Of a stretch of 64,000 nucleotides of DNA, positions 3,107 through 46,727 are shown one piece after another. This DNA comes from Thermomonas carbonis (GTDB lineage Bacteria; Pseudomonadota; Gammaproteobacteria; Xanthomonadales; Xanthomonadaceae), in NCBI RefSeq assembly GCF_014396975.1, contig NZ_CP060719.1, forward strand, positions 3,320,001-3,384,000. The letters run 5' to 3'. The translations under genes were made by a program, and so were the position numbers. Every line of letters starts with the position of its first letter. Positions within the stretch are counted from its first letter, which is position 1. Under the pieces are notes generated by a model. The model did not search any database. It was given only the letters and a program-made list of their open reading frames with translations, and was not told the origin of the DNA.

Positions 3107-5927
3107 ATGGCAATGTATCTTGCTGGTCTGCAATTCAGGCATCACCCGGGCGCGACCACCCATGCCAATGGACCCACCGTCTCGATCAACCTGCCGCTGG
3201 ACTGGTGCGGAGACAACGTCGACGACGCGCACGTGGTGCACGTCGTTGCGCGCCTGGGGGATGCGTATCCCGGTTGGCTAGACGGCCTGCCTTCCCTAGA
3301 CTTCGTGCTGCCCGGGCAGGCATTGGCGCTCGTCGCCACCTACTGGGCACGTGGCCTGCTGAATTCTCGAAGAGGCGTTGTACTCGACGCGGGTGCGACC
3401 CGTGCAACGGCAACCGTCCTGCACTTGTGGGTGGGGACTCATGTCCCGAAGCTGTCGGCCAATGCCTTGGCGCTGGGCCTGAACGCCGTGCGGCTGGATG
3501 GCATGGATGCCCTCGCCTGCAACAGGCTCGTGGCGCAGGTGGGCACCCTGCTCGACCAGTGCGGCACCTTGCATCCCGACTATATCGCACGCGTGCTGAT
3601 GATCGGCGCCGCGGACACGGGCATTCCGTTCGCGCCCTCCCCTTTCGGCAACCGCACCTGGCAGTACGGCCTGGGCAGGCGTTCGCGCTGTTTCCTGGAG
3701 GCCACCCCGCTGGACGATTCGCTGACCGGCACACGAATCGCGCGCAACAAGCTGCTCACGCACGATTTGCTGCCCCGTCTCGGATTCGCGATGCCTCGCC
3801 AAGTCCAGGCGGAAACCGCCGAACAGGCGCTCTCGGCGGCGCAGCAACTCGGTTGGCCGCTCGTGGTGAAGCCCGCCGATCGCGGCAAGGGCAAGGGCGT
3901 CGCCGTCGGGATCCGCGACAGCGAGGGGCTGCGCCGCGCCTTCTCGGAAGCGCGCGCTCAGCGCACTGCCGGTGATCGTGCAACAACTGGTGCCAGGTGA
4001 CGATCATCGCCTGCTCGTGCTGCATGGCCAACTGGTTGCCGCCACGCGACGCAATCCCCCCACGATCGTAGGCGACGGGCGCGCCAGCGTGGCGCAACTC
4101 GTTGCCCGCCTGAACGCGAATCGCCTTGCCGATCCGATGACCGCCCGTTATCTGCAGCAGGTGAAACGCGAACTCCTCATCGATCGCTACCTCGCTGCAC
4201 AAGGACTGGACTGGAACGCCATTCCCACCGTTGACCGGCGCGTCGCGCTGCGCGGCAATGCCAATGTGTCCACTGGCGGCGGAGCAACCGACGTGTTGCA
4301 GCAGGTACATCCGCATATCCGCCGCATGGCGGAGGCAATTGCCGCGAACCTCGGGATGGCCTCGATCGGGATCGACTACCTGTGCTCGGACATCTCGCTT
4401 TCGCCTGAGGTCGCCGGTGGCGCCATCATCGAGGTCAACACCACACCCGGACTCGATCTCCATCTCGCGGATCATGGCTACAGTGAGGAAGCCTTGGGCG
4501 CACTGGTACTCGGGGACGGACTGGGGGCGATCGCGACCGTTGTGGTAGTGGACGACGACGCCTCGTCCCTGCGCGCGTTGGCGACCGCCGACTTCCAGGT
4601 ACCCGGCCTCGGCATCGTCGGCAACGAGTGGGCCACGCTCGATGGACTGCAACTCACGCTAGCCGAATCCGGCCTGCACGACCGTACTGCGCGCATGCTG
4701 GCTCAGCGCAGCTGCAATGCACTGCTGGTTCTGGCCACCGTCGAGTCCATTGCACGCGAGGGGTTTCCCGTGCCTGCCAGCACCTTGACCCTGTGGTGCA
4801 GCGAAAACCAAGGGCAGGGAACTCTGCCCGCCTGGGGTGCTGCCCGACGTTGCAGCATGGAATTGCAGGAAGTAGCCGCCCCGAGCGCGGATGCCGGCCT
4901 GCAATCCATCGCTCGCGCACTAACCGTCGCACCAATGCTTCCGCGCGCTCCGTCGCTGCGGCGCGACGCCCAACTGCGGACGCTGCGCCGGCACCGGGAT
5001 ACCGGTGGGCCAGCGGTATTCGCGATCATGCGCAACGAATCCTGCCTGCTGCCGCATTTCCTCGACCATTACCGCGCACTGGGCGTGGAGGATTTCCACA
5101 TCCTCGACGACAACTCCAGCGACGGTACCCGCGAGTTCCTGCTCGAACAACCCGACTGCACTGTCTGGGCCACGCCTGCCGGCTTCAGCGAGATGCTGGC
5201 CAACGGCGAGAAATTGCTCCACCACGTACGCAATGCGATCCCCGCCACATTGGGCACCGATCGTTGGGTGGTGGGCGTCGACGCGGATGAATTCCTGCTG
5301 TTGCCTTCGCGCTTCGACGGACTGCTGGGCGCCCACGGCCTGCTTGCGCACCTGGACCGTCAGGGCTGGCCGTGCATGCTGGCCGAGATGGTGGAACTCT
5401 ATCCACGCCGGCTGTGTGACGCTTTCCATGTCCCACTGGACGCCCCGCCGCTGCAGGCCCCGCTCTGGTTCGACCAGGACCCGACCTTCGAACGCCGCGA
5501 TGATGGGCGACCGAAAAAACGCGCCGCCGGGATTCGCTGGCGCTTGCAGCAAATGCTGCTTGAACGGCATCCAACCCGGCATCGCGCCATATACGAAGGC
5601 CAGAATTACGCATTGCCGGCATTGTGGAAGACGCCGCTCGCCAAGACGGGCAATGGCGTGGTTTACCTGAACGCCCACAGCTGTAACCGGACCCCGCCGT
5701 CATCAATGCAACTGGCTTTGGCGCACCTGAAATACGGCCCCGATCTCAGGCCTCGCGTGCGCGATTCCCTGGCGACCAAGTCCCACTTCATGGGCAGCAT
5801 CGAGTACCGCCTGCTGGACGCGGCATTGGAACTGCTCGCCGATGAGGACCTCCTGTGCGAAAAAAGCCGGGTTTACGAGGGAGGAGCCTCGCTGGAACGG
5901 GCCGGCATGATGTTCGTGAAAAACTGA
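3107..5927 (+). CDS. Cyanophycin-synthetase-like ATP-grasp / glycosyltransferase family 2 fusion, split by a frameshift
   Basis: Frame 3107-4000 reads through an N-terminal region (1-185) into an ATP-grasp start (NKLLTHDLLPRLGF; LGWPLVVKPADRGKGKGVAV, about 213-268). It stops early; the homologous reading resumes in another frame from about 3972 (VIVQQLVPGDDHRLLVLHG). One extra base near 3950-3970 explains this, giving about 939 residues. Later ATP-grasp motifs are GNANVSTGG and IIEVNTTPGLDLH (about 382-448). Residues about 498-564 resemble a CphA Mur-ligase strand but lack a P-loop. Residues about 636-939 form a Glyco_tranf_2_4 type domain (AIMRNESCLLPHFLDHY, HILDDNSSDGT, GVDADEFLLLP). CphA proper continues into a full Mur ligase, so this is a variant architecture. 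The substrate is unknown. A CphA-like amide ligase joined to a sugar transferase is inferred. Confidence 0.72.
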
Positions 5928-5984: not shown

Positions 5985-6310
5985 GCCACGCATGCCCTGC
6001 GCATGCGGCCGCTGCCAGGGGCGAGCATCGTCACCCCGAATATTCGCTAACTCGAAATGCTCACTGACCCTGCCATCGCGAATGCCGACCACGCTGCAGC
6101 CGCACTGATGCAGACGCTTGAGCTGACGGTCGAGAACGGCGATGGCCACCGTTGCGACCTGATCACCCGCATTCCCGCGGCCCCGCCCGAACACGGGCTG
6201 TGGCTGGCCGGCAGGGGCATGGGCATGCCCACGCGCCATTACCTACCGTTTGCGGGCGCGCCCCGGCCACACGCGGGAGGGCGGTTCCGGCACGAGTGGC
6301 GGCGGCGATT
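5985..6310 (+). pseudogene. Decayed duplicate of the thiD / alpha-beta hydrolase junction
   Basis: Bases 5990-6100 align with the thiD interior at about 8778-8885: the stretches around GCGAGCATCGTCACCCCGAA and CCATCGCGAATGCCGAC are near-identical, and a region in between is diverged. From 6108 the similarity jumps to the start of the hydrolase gene at 9205: MQTLELTVENGDGHRCDLI here against [19 protein letters not shown] there, then WLAGRGMGMPTRHYLPF against WLAGMGMPARHYLPF. The match fades near 6305. About 300 bp of thiD 3' sequence are missing between the two parts. No intact product is possible, so this is a relic of an old duplication. Confidence 0.8.
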
Positions 6311-6359
6311 CGCGGCTGGCCCACCGCGCCTAGGACAGGTTCTAATCACCCAGCAATAT

Positions 6360-6388
6360 TTGATATCTCAGATATCAATATAGATATT
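6360..6388 (+). promoter_or_regulatory. Predicted promoter and operator of the XRE/SulP unit
   Basis: In an AT-rich island unlike the surrounding sequence, TTGATA (6360-6365) and GATATT (6383-6388) are 17 bp apart and fit a sigma-70 promoter. A perfect inverted repeat, TGATATC-TCA-GATATCA at 6361-6377, covers the -35 element and much of the spacer. That is a natural place for the product of the following XRE gene to bind and repress itself. A second palindrome, ACAAGCTTGT, lies at 6399-6408. The promoter is inferred from sequence only. Confidence 0.6.
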
Positions 6389-6449: not shown

Positions 6450-6701
6450 ATGATCAGTTCGACCCAGATGCGCGCCGCCCGCGCCCTGCTCGGCATCGAC
6501 CAGAAGCAGCTCGCGGAGATGGCGGGCGTGTCGGTGCCCACCATCCAGCGCATGGAAAGCAGCCACGGCAACGTGCGCGGCGTGGTCGCCACCCTGACCA
6601 AGATCATCGACGCACTGGACGCGGCCGGCCTGGAACTCATCGGCAACGAGAACCCTAGCCAGGGACGCGGCCGCGGGGTGCGACTGAAGGAACCGCAGTA
6701 A
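6450..6701 (+). CDS. Small XRE-family helix-turn-helix regulator
   Basis: 83 residues, essentially one XRE helix-turn-helix: MRAARALLGIDQKQLAEMAG followed by VSVPTIQRMES, then a helical tail (LTKIIDALDAAGLELI). The ATG at 6450 has GGAAG 6 bp upstream. Its stop overlaps the ATG of the SulP gene (6701), so the two are translationally coupled. It is probably an autorepressor acting at the palindrome 75-90 bp upstream. Proteins of this size and type often sit before membrane transporters; the signal it responds to is not evident. Confidence 0.85.
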   Translation: MISSTQMRAARALLGIDQKQLAEMAGVSVPTIQRMESSHGNVRGVVATLTKIIDALDAAGLELIGNENPSQGRGRGVRLKEPQ

Positions 6702-8394
6702 TGGCCGCACGCTTGGAAGCGGCCCGGCGCGCGTGGCACGGCATGTTCGAGCCGAAGCTGCTGACGGTGCTGCGCGAAGGCTATGGCCTGCAGACCTTCA
6801 AGGCGGACGCGATCGCCGGCCTGACCGTGGCGATCGTCGCGCTGCCGCTGGCGATGGCATTGGCGATCGCCAGCGGCACCACGCCGGAAAGAGGCCTGCA
6901 CACGGCGATCATCGCCGGCTTCCTGATCTCGGTGTTCGGCGGGTCTCGGGTGCAGATCGGCGGGCCTACCGCCGCCTTCATCCCGGTGGTGTTCGTGGTC
7001 ATCCAGAAGTTCGGCTACGGCGGCCTGATCCTGTGCACGCTGATGGCCGGGCTGATGCTGATCGGCGCCGGCCTGCTGCGGCTCGGTACGCTGATGAAAT
7101 ACATGCCGCAGCCGGTGATCACCGGCTTTACCGCCGGCATCGCGGTGAGCATCTTCTCCAGCCAGGTCAAGGACGTGCTCGGCCTGCGCATGGACGCGGT
7201 GCCCGCCGAGTTCCTTGCGCGCTGGATGGCGTATGGCAAGCACATGGCCACCACCCAACCGGCCGCGGTGGCGCTGACCGTGCTCGGACTGGTGGTGATC
7301 GTGGCCCTGCGGCGCTGGAAGCCGAGCTGGCCAGGGTTCCTGATCGCGCTGCTGGCATGCACGCTGGCCAGCATGGCCTTCGCCCTGCCGGCGGAGACCA
7401 TCGGCACCCGCTTCGGCGAGCTGCCATCCGCCCTGCCCACCTTCGCGATCCCGCACATCCCGTTCGAGCGCACGTTCGAGATGCTGCCCAGCGCGTTCAC
7501 CATCGCGTTCCTGTCTGGCGTGGAATCGCTGCTGTCCGCGGTCGTTGCCGACGGCATGACCGGCGGGAGGCATCGCTCGAACGGCGAACTGGTGGCACAG
7601 GGCATCGCCAATGTCGGATCGGCGCTGTTCGGGGCCTGCCCGCGACCGGCGCCCTCGCGCGCACAGCGACCAATATCCGCGCGGGGGGCCGCAGCCCGGT
7701 CGCCGGCATCCTGCATGCCTGCTACCTGCTGCTGTTCATGCTCTTGCTCGCGCCGCTGATGCGCCATGTCCCGCTGGCAGCACTGGCGGCGGTGCTGCTG
7801 GTGGTGGCTTGGAACATGAGTGAGCACGAGGCCTTCCGCAACACGCTGTCGGCGCCGAAGGGCGACCGCCTGGTGTTGTTGCTCACGTTCCTGCTGACGG
7901 TGTTCATGGACCTCACCATCGCGATCGAGGTCGGCATCGTGGTCGCCGCGTTCGTCTTCATGTTCCGGATGTCCGAGGCGATGGAAGTGAGCTCGGGCGT
8001 GGACCAGGCCGGTGATGACGAGCAACGCGCCCGCCTGCCGAAAGGCGTCGAGGTCTACCAGATCAGCGGACCGCTGTTCTTCGGCACGGCGAACCGGCTG
8101 GACAACCTGCTGGACCAGTTCCGGGCGCCGCCGAAGGTGTTCATCCTGCGCATGCGCCTGGTCCCTGTCCTGGACGCAAGTGGCGTGCACGCGCTGAAGA
8201 AGCTGGCAGACCGCTGCCAGCGCAAGGGCATCGCGCTGGTCATCTCCGGCCTGCAGGAGCAGCCGAATCGCGTGCTTGCGCGGATGCAGACGCATGCCGA
8301 TCCCGGCCACATGCACCTCGCGCCCGACTTCGAGCACGCCCTGAAGCTGGCGGAGCGCCTCACCCGCCTGCCTGCGCCGGCTCCGGCACAATAG
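6701..8394 (+). CDS. SulP family inorganic anion transporter, frameshifted
   Basis: An inner-membrane SulP/SLC26 type permease with a C-terminal STAS domain, likely for sulfate, bicarbonate or another anion. The membrane part begins [20 protein letters not shown] and contains [14 protein letters not shown] and [15 protein letters not shown]. The STAS domain (about 440-550) has [17 protein letters not shown] and [15 protein letters not shown]. The reading frame breaks at the GGGGCC run at 7631-7636, where one base is missing. Upstream it reads SALFG and downstream [17 protein letters not shown]. Restored length is about 564 residues, normal for the family. The start overlaps the stop of the XRE gene. 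An indel error is more likely than real inactivation, but this is unproven. Confidence 0.85.
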
Positions 8395-8398
8395 GCGG

Positions 8399-9205
8399 AT
8401 GCAGGACAACCGCCCGTACAGCGCGCTGACCATCGCCGGTTCCGATTCCGGTGGTGGCGCCGGCCTCCAGGCCGACCTCAAGACCTTCGCCGCGCATCGC
8501 GTGCATGGCCTCACGGCGGTCGCCGCGCTGACCGCGCAGCACACCCGCGGCGTGACCGCCGTGCACGTGCCGGATGTCGGCTTCCTGCGTGCGCAGCTCG
8601 ACGCGTGTTTCGATGACTTCGATATCGGCGCGGTGAAGATCGGGATGCTCGCCACTGCCGAAGTGATCGGCTGCGTCGCTGACGCGCTGGAAGCTCATCG
8701 ACCACCGCACGTGGTGCTGGACCCGGTGATGGTCGCCACCAGCGGCGCGAAGTTGCTGGCCGATGACGCGCTGCACGCGCTGCGCAGGCGACTGCTGCCA
8801 CTGGCCAGCATCGTCACGCCGAATATCCCGGAAGCGGAACTACTGACCGGACAGGCCATCGCGAATGCCGACGACGCGGTCGCCGCCATCGCTGCGCTGC
8901 GCGCGATGGGCGCGAGGGCCGTGCTGCTGAAAGGCGGCCATCTCGATGAAGGCGAGACCGTGATCGACCGCTACGACGATGGTGTGGTCGACGCGGAGTT
9001 CATCCACGACAGGCTCGCGCTGGAAGGCCACGGCACCGGCTGCACGCTTGCCTCCTCGATCGCCGCCAACCTGTGCCGGGGCATGTCGATGCCTGCTGCG
9101 GTGGAAGCTGCCACCGACTACATCGAACGCGCGCTGCGTGGCGGCTACCGGCCGGGTCGCGGCGACGTGGTGGTGCTCGATCACTTCGGCGCGGCGGCGC
9201 GCTGA
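8399..9205 (+). CDS. thiD: Bifunctional hydroxymethylpyrimidine kinase / phosphomethylpyrimidine kinase
   Basis: Phosphorylates HMP and then HMP phosphate to HMP diphosphate in thiamine synthesis. 268 residues, the usual length. It shows the ThiD N-terminus [20 protein letters not shown], the central [16 protein letters not shown], and the C-terminal anion-hole and catalytic region [18 protein letters not shown] of the ribokinase-like fold. It starts 4 bp after the SulP stop, and its stop overlaps the next ATG (TGATG), which points to one transcript. Confidence 0.95.
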
Positions 9206-10032
9206 TGCAGGCGCTTGAACTGCCGGTGGAGACCGGCGATGGCCATCGTTGCGAATTGATCGCGCGCATCCCCGACGCGCCACGCGGGCGTGTGCTGTGG
9301 CTGGCCGGCATGGGCATGCCCGCGCGCCATTACCTGCCGTTCGCGGATGCATTGGCTGCACGCGGGATGGCCGTATTCCTGCACGAATGGCGCGGGATCG
9401 GTTCCAGCAACCTGCGCGCCTCGCGGGGGAACGACTGGGGTTATCGCGAATTGCTCGCCGACCTCACCGCCAGCCAGGCGATGGCGGATGCGCATGCGCC
9501 CGGCCTCCGTCGCATCGTCGGTGGCCACAGTCTCGGCGGGCAGATGTCGTGCTGCCAGTTGGGCCTGCATCCGGACAGCGCGGATGCGTTGTGGCTGGTC
9601 GCCAGCGGTGCGCCGTACTGGCGCGAGTTCGCCGCACCGAAGCGCTGGGGCCTGCTGCCCGCCTATCAGTTCATGCGCTGGCTGGCCGCACGCAATGGCT
9701 TCATGCCGGGTCGACGGATCGGCTTTGGCGGCAACGAGGCGCGCAGCGTGATCGCCGATTGGGCACGCATCGCGATCAGTGGCCATTACGCCGCGCCCGG
9801 TGTCGATGTGGACCTCGAAGCCGGCATGGCGCGCTTCACCGGCGAGCTGCGCGCGCTGACCTACGATAAAGACTGGCTGGCACCGCCGGTATCGACGGCC
9901 TTCCTCACCGGCAAATTGCCGAATGCGAAGCTGACCGCAGGGCATTTCGATGCTGCGGCGGCCGGCACCGTGGCTGACCATTACGCGTGGATCAAGACCC
10001 CCGACGCAACGGCCGACTGGCTGCTGCGCTGA
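9205..10032 (+). CDS. Alpha/beta hydrolase family protein
   Basis: 275 residues with an alpha/beta hydrolase fold. The nucleophile elbow is GGHSLGGQ (Ser near residue 112). An oxyanion-type region is LWLAGMGMPARHYLPFADAL, and a C-terminal His lies in LTAGHFDAAAAG. It resembles the uncharacterised YheT/UCP037442-like hydrolases of Xanthomonads; the substrate is unknown. The ATG overlaps the thiD stop, so translation is coupled. A decayed copy of its first about 65 codons lies at 6108-6305. It ends 4 bp from the convergent fabB stop. Confidence 0.8.
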   Translation: MQALELPVETGDGHRCELIARIPDAPRGRVLWLAGMGMPARHYLPFADALAARGMAVFLHEWRGIGSSNLRASRGNDWGYRELLADLTASQAMADAHAPGLRRIVGGHSLGGQMSCCQLGLHPDSADALWLVASGAPYWREFAAPKRWGLLPAYQFMRWLAARNGFMPGRRIGFGGNEARSVIADWARIAISGHYAAPGVDVDLEAGMARFTGELRALTYDKDWLAPPVSTAFLTGKLPNAKLTAGHFDAAAAGTVADHYAWIKTPDATADWLLR

Positions 10033-10036
10033 TCGC

Positions 10037-11257
10037 TCATATCCGCGCGAACACCACTGCGGCATTGGTGCCGCCGAAGCCGAAGCTGTTCGACATCACC
10101 GTGTCCAATTCCGCATCGCGGCTTTCGCGCACGATCGGAAAGCCCTCGCAACGCGGATCGAGCGTCTCGATGTTCGCCGAACCGGCGATGAAGCCGTCGC
10201 GCAGCATCAGCAGGCTGTAGATCGCCTCGTGCACGCTGGCCGCGCCCAGGGAATGGCCGGACAGCGCCTTGGTCGACGACAGCGGCGGCACCGCATCGCC
10301 GAATACTTCGCGCACCGCGTTCAATTCGGTGATGTCGCCGAGCGGGGTCGAGGTGCCGTGGGTGTTCAGGTAATCGATCGGACGGTCGATGCCTGCCATC
10401 GCCATGCGCATGCAACGCACCGCGCCCTCACCGCTCGGCGCGACCATGTCGGCACCGTCGCTGGTCACGCCGTAGCCGATCAGCTCGGCGTGGATATGCG
10501 CGCCGCGTGCCTTCGCGTGTTCGTAGTCTTCCAGCACCAGCATGCCGCCGCCGCCGGCGATGACGAAACCGTCGCGGTTGGTGTCGTAGGGACGCGATGC
10601 CGTGGCCGGCGTCTCGTTGAAGCTGGTGGACAAGGCACCCATCGCGTCGAACATCACGCTCATGGTCCAGTCCAGGTCTTCGCCGCCACCGGCGAACATG
10701 ATGTCCTGCGCACCGTGGTGGATCAGGTCGGCGGCCGCGCCGATGCAGTGCGCGGAGGTCGCGCAGGCAGCGGACAGCGAATAGCTGAGACCCTTGATCT
10801 TGAACGCAGTGGCGAGGTTGGCCGAGACCGTCGAACACATCGTCCGCGGCACCATGTACGGACCGACCTTGCGCACGCCGCGATCGCGCAGCAAGTCGGC
10901 GGTTTCCACCTGCCAGCGACTGGATCCGCCACCGGAACCGGCGATCAGGCCGGTGCGCGGATCGCTGGTTTGCGACTCGTCGAGGCCGGCATCTTTGATC
11001 GCGTCGCGCAGCGACACGTAACTGTATGCGGCGGCATCGCTCATGAAACGCTTGAGCTTGCGATCGATCACCGCATCGAGGTCGAGGTCGACGGCACCGC
11101 CGACCTGACTGCGCAATCCGTGCTCGGCGTGGTCGGGGAGGAAGCGGATGCCCGGCCGGCTGGCGCGCAGCGCCGACGACACCGTTTCGAGATCATTGCC
11201 CAGGCAGGACGCGATGCCCATGCCGGTCACCACCACGCGGCGCATCGTCGTACTCAC
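10037..11257 (-). CDS. fabB: Beta-ketoacyl-ACP synthase I
   Basis: A condensing enzyme of fatty acid elongation, needed to extend the cis-3-decenoyl intermediate made by FabA. It has the thiolase-fold motifs: the catalytic Cys in [16 protein letters not shown], the His in [12 protein letters not shown] and the second His in [13 protein letters not shown]. The start used is GTG at 11257, which overlaps the fabA stop (ATGTGAG) with GGAGG just upstream. ATG at 11245 ([13 protein letters not shown]) aligns exactly with the E. coli FabB N-terminus and is equally possible. It is 402 or 406 residues long, normal for the family. Confidence 0.93.
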
Positions 11258-11768
11258 ATGGCCTCCGTCGACTGGAACAGGCCCACGCGCATGTCGCGGG
11301 CGGTGTAGATCTCGCGGCCATCCACGTAGGTGCGGCCGTCGGCGACGACCAGGCGCAGGCGCCCGCGCAGCAGGCGGCGGATGTCGATCTCGTAGCTGAC
11401 CACCTTGGCGTCCGGCAGCACTTGCCCGGTGAACTTGATCTCGCCGGCGCCCAGTGCGCGGCCACGGCCGGTTTCGCCCAGCCACGGCAGGAAGAAGCCG
11501 GTGAGTTGCCACATCGCATCCACCCCAGGCAACCGGGCATCACCGGGTCGCCGAGGAAGTGGCAGCCGAAGAACCACAGGTCCGGGTGGATGTCGAGTTC
11601 GGCGCGGATGAAGCCCTTGCCGTGCGCGCCGCCGTCATCGCTGATGTGGGTGATGCGATCGAACATGAGCATCGGCGGTGCTGGCAAGCGGGCATTGCCT
11701 TCGCCGAACAATTCACCACGGGCGCAAGCCAGCAGTTGCTCACGATCCAACGAGGAAAGACGCGTCAT
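11254..11768 (-). CDS. fabA: 3-hydroxydecanoyl-ACP dehydratase/isomerase, frameshifted
   Basis: Makes the cis double bond of unsaturated fatty acids. From ATG at 11768 it reads [20 protein letters not shown], then [17 protein letters not shown] with the catalytic His. The frame then breaks at a C run on the plus strand (11523-11526, GGGG in the gene) where one base is missing. It resumes as [18 protein letters not shown] and runs to GLFQSTEAM. The restored length is 171 residues, matching FabA (172 in E. coli). FabA is normally essential beside FabB, so the break is most likely a sequencing or assembly indel. Confidence 0.88.
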
Positions 11769-11949
11769 TGCGGGGCCCTGGACGACTAGAGCAACGATTC
11801 TAAAGGGCAGCTGCGCGACATACCTATGCGTACTGCCTACATGAATGATCTCCACCCGCCATACCTCGGCGAACGTTGGAAACGAAACCACTGCGACATC
11901 CGCGGCGCAGCCGTATTAAGCTTCGGGTTCCCCACGCCGGAACCCATCC

Positions 11950-13419
11950 GTGACGCATGCCGCGCCCGCTTCGCTACTGACCATCTTCGGCGCCACCGGC
12001 GACCTCGCGCGGCGCATGCTGCTGCCCTCGCTGTACAGCCTGCAGGCCGAGCAGCTGTTGCCGGCGAACCTGCGCATCCTGGGTACCGCGCGCAGCGAAC
12101 TCGACCGCGAAGGCTTCGCCAACCTCGTCTCGGCCAGCATCGCCGACCGCATTGCCGCAGCGGAACGCAACGATGCCGCGCTGCGCGGTTTGCTGGATCG
12201 ACTCGACTATGCCGCGGCAAGCGTCGACGACGATGCCTCGATGGCCGCGCTGGCGTCGAAGGTGCAAGCGCTGCGCGACGGCGACGTGCTGTATCACATG
12301 AGTACCGCGCCGAAATTCTACGGTCCCGCCTGCCAGTCCCTTGCTGCGCACGGTGCTGCCGGTGCCGGCACTCGCGTGATGCTGGAGAAGCCGATCGGCA
12401 AGGACCTCGCTTCTGCCATCGCGATAAATGACAGCGTTGCCATGGCCTTCGACGAGGAGCGGATTTACCGCGTCGATCACTACCTGGGCAAGGAAGGCGT
12501 GCAGAACCTGATCGCCTTGCGCTTCGGCAATGCATTGTTCGAACCGCTGTGGAATGCGCGGCATATCGAGCAGGTGCAGATCACCGTCGGCGAGACCGTC
12601 GGCGTCGAAGGGCGTGGCGATTACTACGACGATTCCGGTGCGCTGCGCGACATGCTGCAGAACCATCTGCTGCAACTGCTGTGCCTGGTGGCGATGGAGC
12701 CGCCGGCCAAGTTCGACCCGACCGCGGTGCGCAACGAGAAGATCAAGGTGCTGCGCTCGCTGCGCCCGATCGGTCGCGAACAGGTCGCGCACGAATCGGT
12801 CGCCGGGCAGTACACCGCGGGTGCCAGCGACGGCGTCGCGGTCCCCGGCTACGCGGACGAACTGGGTCGCAGCAGCCGCACCGAAACCTTCGTCGCCCTG
12901 CGCGCGCACGTGGACAACTGGCGTTGGTCCGGCGTGCCGTTCTACCTGCGCACCGGCAAGCGGCTGCCCTCGCGCAGCACCGAGATCTACATCCAGTTCC
13001 GCAAGGTGCCGTATTCGATCTTCGGTGGCCGTACCGCCAGCGACATGCAGCCCAACGGCTTGTTGATTCGCCTGCAGCCGGAAGAGCGCATCGAACTCGA
13101 CCTGATGGCGAAGACACCGGGGCTCGACCGCAGTGGCCTGCGCTTGTCGCAGGTCGGCCTGGACCTGGACTTCCACGAGGAGTTCGCCAACGCGCGCAAG
13201 CGCATCGCCTACGAACGCCTGTACCTGGATGCGATCGAAGGCAACGGCACCCTGTTCGTGCGCCGCGACGAAACCGAAGCCGCGTGGCAATGGGTCGATG
13301 CGATCGCCGATGGCTGGCGCGCGGCGGGGATCACGCCAAGGCCGTACCCGGCCGGCACCTGGGGTCCGGGCGCGGCGGTCTCGCTGACCGAACGCCACGG
13401 CCACGGCTGGCGGGAATAA
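11950..13419 (+). CDS. zwf: Glucose-6-phosphate 1-dehydrogenase
   Basis: Oxidises glucose-6-phosphate to 6-phosphogluconolactone with NADP+/NAD+. 489 residues, full length. The nucleotide-binding motif is IFGATGDLARRMLLPSL near the N-terminus, and the active-site signature is YRVDHYLGKEGVQNL. The GTG at 11950 has GGAAC 6 bp upstream and gives MTHAAPAS. It is the first gene of an Entner-Doudoroff run (zwf-pgl-edd-glk-eda) with gaps of 6 bp or less or overlaps, so it is probably one operon. The promoter lies in the 181 bp shared with divergent fabA. Confidence 0.96.
   Translation: MTHAAPASLLTIFGATGDLARRMLLPSLYSLQAEQLLPANLRILGTARSELDREGFANLVSASIADRIAAAERNDAALRGLLDRLDYAAASVDDDASMAALASKVQALRDGDVLYHMSTAPKFYGPACQSLAAHGAAGAGTRVMLEKPIGKDLASAIAINDSVAMAFDEERIYRVDHYLGKEGVQNLIALRFGNALFEPLWNARHIEQVQITVGETVGVEGRGDYYDDSGALRDMLQNHLLQLLCLVAMEPPAKFDPTAVRNEKIKVLRSLRPIGREQVAHESVAGQYTAGASDGVAVPGYADELGRSSRTETFVALRAHVDNWRWSGVPFYLRTGKRLPSRSTEIYIQFRKVPYSIFGGRTASDMQPNGLLIRLQPEERIELDLMAKTPGLDRSGLRLSQVGLDLDFHEEFANARKRIAYERLYLDAIEGNGTLFVRRDETEAAWQWVDAIADGWRAAGITPRPYPAGTWGPGAAVSLTERHGHGWRE

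Positions 13420-44448: not shown

Positions 44449-46727
<2,279 letters not shown>

Follow-up and report, generated by a model that had tools for sequence, protein, structure and literature searches.

A CphA2-like amide ligase joined to a GT-A glycosyltransferase in a frame-broken gene of Thermomonas carbonis

What does a gene make that appears to place a cyanophycin synthetase (CphA)-type ATP-grasp ligase and a glycosyltransferase in one polypeptide? The question is raised by positions 3107..5927 (+ strand) of a 64,000-nucleotide stretch of DNA, the window, which covers positions 3320001-3384000 of the 3.46 Mb single-contig genome of Thermomonas carbonis. An earlier interpretation made from the letters alone (the sequence-only reading) had proposed such a fusion, with a glycosylated product. 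Comparison with homologous sequences indicates that the fusion is real and old, and not the result of chance. Tentatively, we favour the view that the window holds a probably horizontally acquired, frame-broken copy of a rare two-enzyme chain that would carry out amide ligation and then glycosylate the product.

The locus consists of two open reading frames (ORFs) that overlap on the + strand in different frames and jointly have the layout of one protein. ORF1 (3107..4000, 297 amino acids) holds a CphA-type N domain (approximately residues 1-185) and the first half of an ATP-grasp domain (approximately residues 185-285); ORF2 (3972..5927, 651 amino acids) holds the second half, a Mur (M) domain remnant lacking a P-loop, a linker, and a GT-A glycosyltransferase. 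Between approximately 3940 and 3975 on this strand, homology switches reading frame at a point where intact homologues are uninterrupted, and because of this break the C-terminal end of ORF1 before its stop codon consists of non-homologous residues. The proposal of one polypeptide thus holds for the intact homologues but not for the window as read, which gives two ORFs. Apart from this single break, ORF1 and ORF2 are free of stops, and they retain those catalytic residues of the two enzymes that were counted. No evidence was found for a programmed frameshift: inspection of the alignment (slippery sites were not tested) shows homology leaving ORF1 ahead of its stop codon, so that a shift at the stop would not account for the break.

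The ligase part is of the CphA type, as had been read from the motifs GNANVSTGG and EVNTTPGLDLH, both present in the window. The cyanophycin synthetase model NF010623 matches ORF2 residues 2-166 (E = 9.2e-46) and ORF1 residues 168-285 (E = 5e-19), and ORF1, the start of ORF2, and the homologue P0002 also match CphA structures. In a structure model of P0002, residues 1-604 have a fold like that of cyanophycin synthetase 2 (CphA2), and a short low-confidence linker separates the ligase part from the glycosyltransferase. When the whole model served as query in a structure search, good coverage was confined to residues 1-604, and the glycosyltransferase domain was therefore folded alone. The Mur remnant and linker (4470..4973, approximate, + strand) correspond in this model to the truncated M domain of CphA2. 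The P-loop pattern GKT[TS] is absent from ORF1, from ORF2, and from all 10 other fusion rows, and present in 11 of 11 CphA1-type rows. The absence of a normal Mur ligase, noted in the sequence-only reading, is accordingly real but not itself new, since the first 604 residues share their fold with CphA2, an enzyme already known to have a truncated Mur domain. This Mur-like stretch is poorly conserved among the fusions: its mean identity is 23%, whereas the ligase part reaches 56% and the glycosyltransferase 48%.

Residues of the ligase pocket were compared using the numbering of CphA1 (PDB 7lg5). The 11 fusions counted are 10 homologue rows and the window, represented by ORF2 for C-terminal sites and by ORF1 for positions 215 and 267; rows of the pocket alignment were limited to 700 residues, and for both these counts and the ligase tree L078, a wrong ORF, was left out, L043 was not used, and L069 yielded no intact ORF. 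The C-terminal half of the ATP-grasp domain (3972..4469, + strand) keeps the equivalents of Arg309, Arg323, Asn394, Ser396, Glu450, and Asn452, and all six are conserved in 11/11 fusions. Position 458 differs. In CphA1, according to PMC9427784, Arg458 sits near the alpha-carboxylate of the aspartate that is to be added. This residue is Arg in 11/11 Mur-bearing CphA-type rows, Phe or Tyr in two CphA2 structures, and Asp in every fusion; the Asp codon of the window (4455..4457, + strand) lies within EVNTTPGLDLH. At position 267, where the substitution H267A serves to inactivate the G domain of CphA1 (PMC9262961), the fusions carry Lys (4), Gln (6), or Arg (1), the window having Lys by residue alignment (3887..3889, + strand). 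Glu at position 215, which contacts the Arg side chain of the polymer, is found in none of the 11. The N-domain motif Cx19HxxEH is likewise missing from all 10 fusion rows and from both window ORFs, although this pattern separates poorly, finding just 1 of 11 CphA1-type rows.

The fusion is probably not a cyanophycin synthetase, because position 458 is Asp and position 267 is Lys, Gln, or Arg in all 11 fusions. TIGR02068, the CphA1 model, has a cut-off of 850 bits, which is missed by the window ORFs (57.3 and 145.7 bits) and by the intact homologue P0037 (250.2 bits); as a control, the CphA1 of the same genome scores 1109.2 bits. That CphA1 belongs to a complete cyanophycin locus elsewhere in the genome (L086, G000:C1:1612000-1630000, at 6690-13405), where isoaspartyl dipeptidase, cyanophycinase, and CphA1, all above cut-offs, are accompanied by a separate Mur-domain protein, so the fusion is unlikely to be the cell's cyanophycin synthetase. 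Cyanophycin synthesis, considered as the role of the fusion, is weakened by this locus and by residues 267, 458, and 215.

The C-terminal part (4974..5924, + strand) is a glycosyltransferase, as had been claimed. PF13704 matches ORF2 residues 354-446 (core at 5031-5309; E = 5.3e-21, 75.4 bits against a cut-off of 27.5), and the motifs DDNSSDG (5106-5126, + strand) and VDADEF (5277-5294, + strand; DxD-E) lie within it. Modelled alone, the window domain takes a GT-A fold with a mean predicted local distance difference test (pLDDT) score of 95.3, and, judged by title, the structural matches listed are glycosyltransferases in 50 of 50 rows from VIA and 48 of 50 from Foldseek. The window and the 10 other fusion rows retain the DD-S-D and D-D-E positions, except that P0039 has Glu for the first Asp. 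The fusion glycosyltransferase shares its PF13704 match, GT-A fold, and DxD motif with other PF13704 glycosyltransferases and with the GT92 galactan synthase GalS1 (PDB 8d3t), and differs from them in being joined to a ligase. In five further proteins (P0008, P0069-P0072) a related glycosyltransferase domain is also joined to another enzyme; the partner there is a PF13759/TIGR02466-type 2-oxoglutarate/iron oxygenase and not a ligase, and these proteins form a separate branch of the glycosyltransferase tree.

The sequence-only reading had left room for two separate proteins joined by chance. Protein searches and one genome scan recovered seven uninterrupted single-chain homologues of 927-976 amino acids: P0002 (938), P0004 (944), P0006 (927, starting approximately 45 residues into the N domain), P0037 (952), P0038 (965), P0039 (976), and an ORF at L040 (965). 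Four incomplete homologues (P0003, P0005, P0007, and P0040) also contain both parts, and all 11 exceed the PF13704 cut-off. Homologues with the same domain order rule out a chance fusion confined to this genome. P0037 is the protein of locus L039 in a metagenome-assembled genome (MAG) of the Alphaproteobacteria, and L040 lies in a Burkholderiales MAG. Scanning genome contigs with ORF2 alone gave 89 matched stretches, none of them a relative; scanning with an alignment of three intact fusions gave five loci.

Trees and distances suggest a shared history of the two parts. The ligase tree, in which only part of ORF2 stands for the window, unites 11 fusion rows with 27 standalone rows in a single clade (support 100/99), the two kinds being interleaved. 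In a first glycosyltransferase tree the 12 fusion glycosyltransferases lie on one side of a branch (76/87). In a larger tree, which adds 61 of 120 listed proteins (162 found) to 21 of the 23 earlier rows, P0031 and P0035 being left out, they form one group (Shimodaira-Hasegawa-like approximate likelihood ratio test, 98) with a single outsider, P0099, which has a second glycosyltransferase domain. Across 11 fusions, in a matrix that does not include P0005, pairwise identity in the ligase stretch (residues 281-470 of P0002) correlates with that in the glycosyltransferase stretch (636-850; r = 0.56; none of 2000 permutations as high), and the glycosyltransferase parts are 39-64% identical. The simplest reading would be a single fusion event and later losses of the glycosyltransferase or, possibly, exchange of partners on the ligase side.

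The distribution of the fusion is sparse. The sequence-only reading had proposed a search for the same domain order in other Xanthomonadaceae; among 296 genomes of the family it was found in this genome only and not in the other 295, and it was not found in 24 other sampled genomes of the genus. No other genome carries it among 369 of the class and 398 of the phylum, sets that overlap and include this genome; these family, class, and phylum scans scored the two best candidates per genome and omitted matches weaker than a set E-value, so some may have been missed. Two further sets, 96 genomes related to that of L039 and 99 related to that of L040, each counting the reference genome itself, yielded the fusion in those two genomes only; at most nine and eight candidates per genome, respectively, were scored and matches weaker than the set E-value again omitted, so some may have been missed.

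The likeliest history of the fusion is horizontal acquisition. Genes flanking it are named here from Pfam matches (phoH, PhoH; SulP, Sulfate_transp; thiD, Phos_pyr_kin). Downstream of phoH in 11 relatives of the genus, within a flank of approximately 1-1.5 kb, there is no match to either fusion ORF: SulP follows within approximately 0.4 kb in three (L099, L100, and L103), thiD within approximately 0.8 kb in two (L097 and L098), a more distant, opposite-strand SulP is found in L104 and L105, and L101, L102, L106, and L107 have neither. Third-position guanine plus cytosine content is 0.75-0.80 in the fusion ORFs versus 0.91-0.92 in phoH and SulP; it is nearly as low (0.80-0.83) in thiD and a neighbouring hydrolase gene, so composition is weak evidence of transfer. 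Directly after the fusion gene, at 6057-6383, lies a degraded partial duplicate of this alpha/beta-hydrolase gene, whose intact copy (9202-10032, downstream of thiD) matches Hydrolase_4; the fragment has no Pfam match, and the copies are 77% identical over 203 bases. A function based on an operon was also considered and set aside, as the window, L039, and L040 are by inspection without common neighbours.

How might the two enzymes act together? In the reading that we tentatively favour, the ligase would activate a carboxylate with ATP, by way of an acyl phosphate, and couple it to an amine. The amine-bearing substrate would not be Asp, because the equivalent of Arg458 is itself Asp, and would likely place a positive or hydroxyl-rich group at this site. 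The Mur remnant would serve as scaffold only. The glycosyltransferase would then use a nucleotide sugar to glycosylate the newly made amide or short isopeptide, either directly or on a side chain, giving from one polypeptide a glycosylated amide or short peptide apart from cyanophycin storage. The order of steps and both substrates are inferred; a glycosylated peptide or polyamide, as proposed earlier, would be a reasonable product. Slight support may come from a Methylophaga locus (L042), where a PF13692 glycosyltransferase gene starts 14 bases after an unfused ligase of the same clade.

Several observations weigh against this reading. The ligase clade contains 27 standalone ligases against 11 fusions, although some standalones may be cut by contig ends, and same-clade ligases without a glycosyltransferase are thus common. 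Asp458 occurs in 23 of 29 standalone rows as well, and is therefore not tied to the presence of a glycosyltransferase. Positions 267 and 215 discriminate less cleanly than position 458, varying in 4 of the 11 Mur-bearing rows (His267 in 7, Glu215 in 7). Nearness of the C-terminal domain to peptide glycosyltransferases is at the fold level only (TM-score approximately 0.4). By inspection, no neighbourhood is common to the window, L039, and L040. Of the five standalone loci examined in genomes related to that of L039 (L118-L122), none has a PF13704-type glycosyltransferase near the ligase in a scan with a profile of our own for this kind alone, so the ligase can work without such a partner; all four of L118-L121 have a hybrid histidine kinase as a neighbour, and three of these four a MAPEG protein. 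Finally, the copy in the window is frame-broken and may be dead.

This last point is the core of the best-surviving alternative, that the fusion was acquired, lost its frame, and has no current function here. We regard it as a serious possibility, if a somewhat improbable one. The break falls inside the ATP-grasp domain, no fusion was found in the 24 other genomes sampled from the genus, and the hydrolase fragment is degraded. The SulP gene, whose start lies 0.8 kb downstream, has a frame break of its own near 7640: in a Pfam scan, positions 1-297 of Sulfate_transp fall in one frame and positions 295-379 in a second. Yet the gene is otherwise without stops and keeps its counted catalytic residues, and elsewhere in the window an ORF pair at 44491-46724 is split near 46305 (the one broken gene out of 36 syntenic genes checked against a relative in the genus, SulP not being among the 36), which makes assembly errors equally possible. 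Three breaks in 64 kb are compatible either with assembly errors or with real decay.

An unlikely alternative reverses the order of the steps: the glycosyltransferase would first attach a sugar acid or amino sugar to an acceptor, and the ligase would then amidate the sugar carboxylate or acylate the sugar amine, giving a glycan decorated with an amino acid or amine. Unfused relatives of the glycosyltransferase are plentiful, and two further genomes of the same taxonomic order have a PF13704 gene close to nucleotide-sugar genes (encoding NTP_transferase and GDP_Man_Dehyd proteins at L091 and a GDP_Man_Dehyd protein at L093); Asp in place of Arg458 would also suit a hydroxyl-rich substrate. However, the N domain and the pocket residues Asn394, Arg323, and Ser396 are those of a CphA-type amino-acid ligase, and inspection found no glycan cluster at the window, L039, or L040, save a lone GT2 gene approximately 2.6 kb upstream in L039.

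It is quite improbable that two unrelated enzymes without a shared pathway were joined by chance. The frequent absence of a glycosyltransferase from same-clade ligases, the single-domain size of most listed glycosyltransferase relatives, and neighbours that by inspection are not conserved would fit such a joining; against it stand the same domain order in 12 divergent proteins (including the window), their grouped glycosyltransferase domains, and the correlated distances. Least credible of all is a CphA2-like polymerase that joins beta-Asp-Arg dipeptides and has its polymer started or capped with a sugar by the glycosyltransferase, which would suit the CphA2-like overall fold with its truncated M domain and the single active site from which CphA2 works (PMC9427784 and PMC10206079) but is opposed by Asp458 in 11/11 fusions, by the absence of Glu215 and His267 from all of them, and by the full CphA1 locus already in the genome.

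The fusion can thus be placed against known systems. With CphA1 (TIGR02068; PDB 7lg5 and 7wac) it shares the fold of the N and G domains and the six conserved residues, and it differs in lacking the Mur P-loop and in the replacement of His267 and Arg458. Like CphA2 (PDB 7ta5, 8fxh/8fxi) it has N, G, and truncated M domains and no P-loop. Unlike CphA2, which ends after the M domain and has Phe or Tyr at position 458, it has Asp there and continues into a PF13704 domain in all seven uninterrupted homologues; its named hosts are the two MAGs, whereas CphA2 is described as a cyanobacterial enzyme. Among the papers listed from the open-licence literature, we found no description of a fusion of CphA or ATP-grasp to a glycosyltransferase. 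The constituent parts are of known kinds, and the fusion is not a categorically new system. It is conceivable, though we think it doubtful, that a CphA2-like ligase whose amine-acceptor pocket has been switched and a glycosyltransferase of the peptide type together constitute a single-chain synthetase, and that its products are a new class of glycosylated isopeptides or amides in the Pseudomonadota, from a glycosyltransferase lineage that alternates between ligase-made and hydroxylated substrates, since related glycosyltransferase domains pair with a 2-oxoglutarate oxygenase elsewhere.

Other CphA-type genes occur in this and related genomes. The T. carbonis genome encodes a second CphA2-like ligase of 626 amino acids (L087, G000:C1:2759000-2777000, at 7943-11893), followed by genes for a methyltransferase and for a member of the enolase superfamily that matches cycloisomerases and L-Ala-D/L-Glu epimerase below cut-off, a gene set that looks like a small peptide pathway. 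Several ligases adjoin Pfam-matched methyltransferases (L080, L083, L087, and L122). In two genomes of the same genus (L088 and L089) there is a tandem pair of CphA-type proteins of 733-892 amino acids, one member of which is unlike CphA1 at positions 323, 396, and 458. Mur-less CphA-like ligases are greatly expanded in the genomes of L039-L043; the Burkholderiales MAG has 12 ligase-matching places above 100 bits, the fusion included.

In the papers covered, CphA1 and the truncated CphA2 are described as making a single storage polymer. In the fusion family the catalytic core is retained, a residue in contact with the incoming amino acid is altered, and the chain is extended by a sugar transferase. 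The fusion also draws attention to a sizeable group of Mur-less CphA relatives that appear to be uncharacterised. Were the favoured reading correct, the range of this ligase family would reach to glycosylated products.
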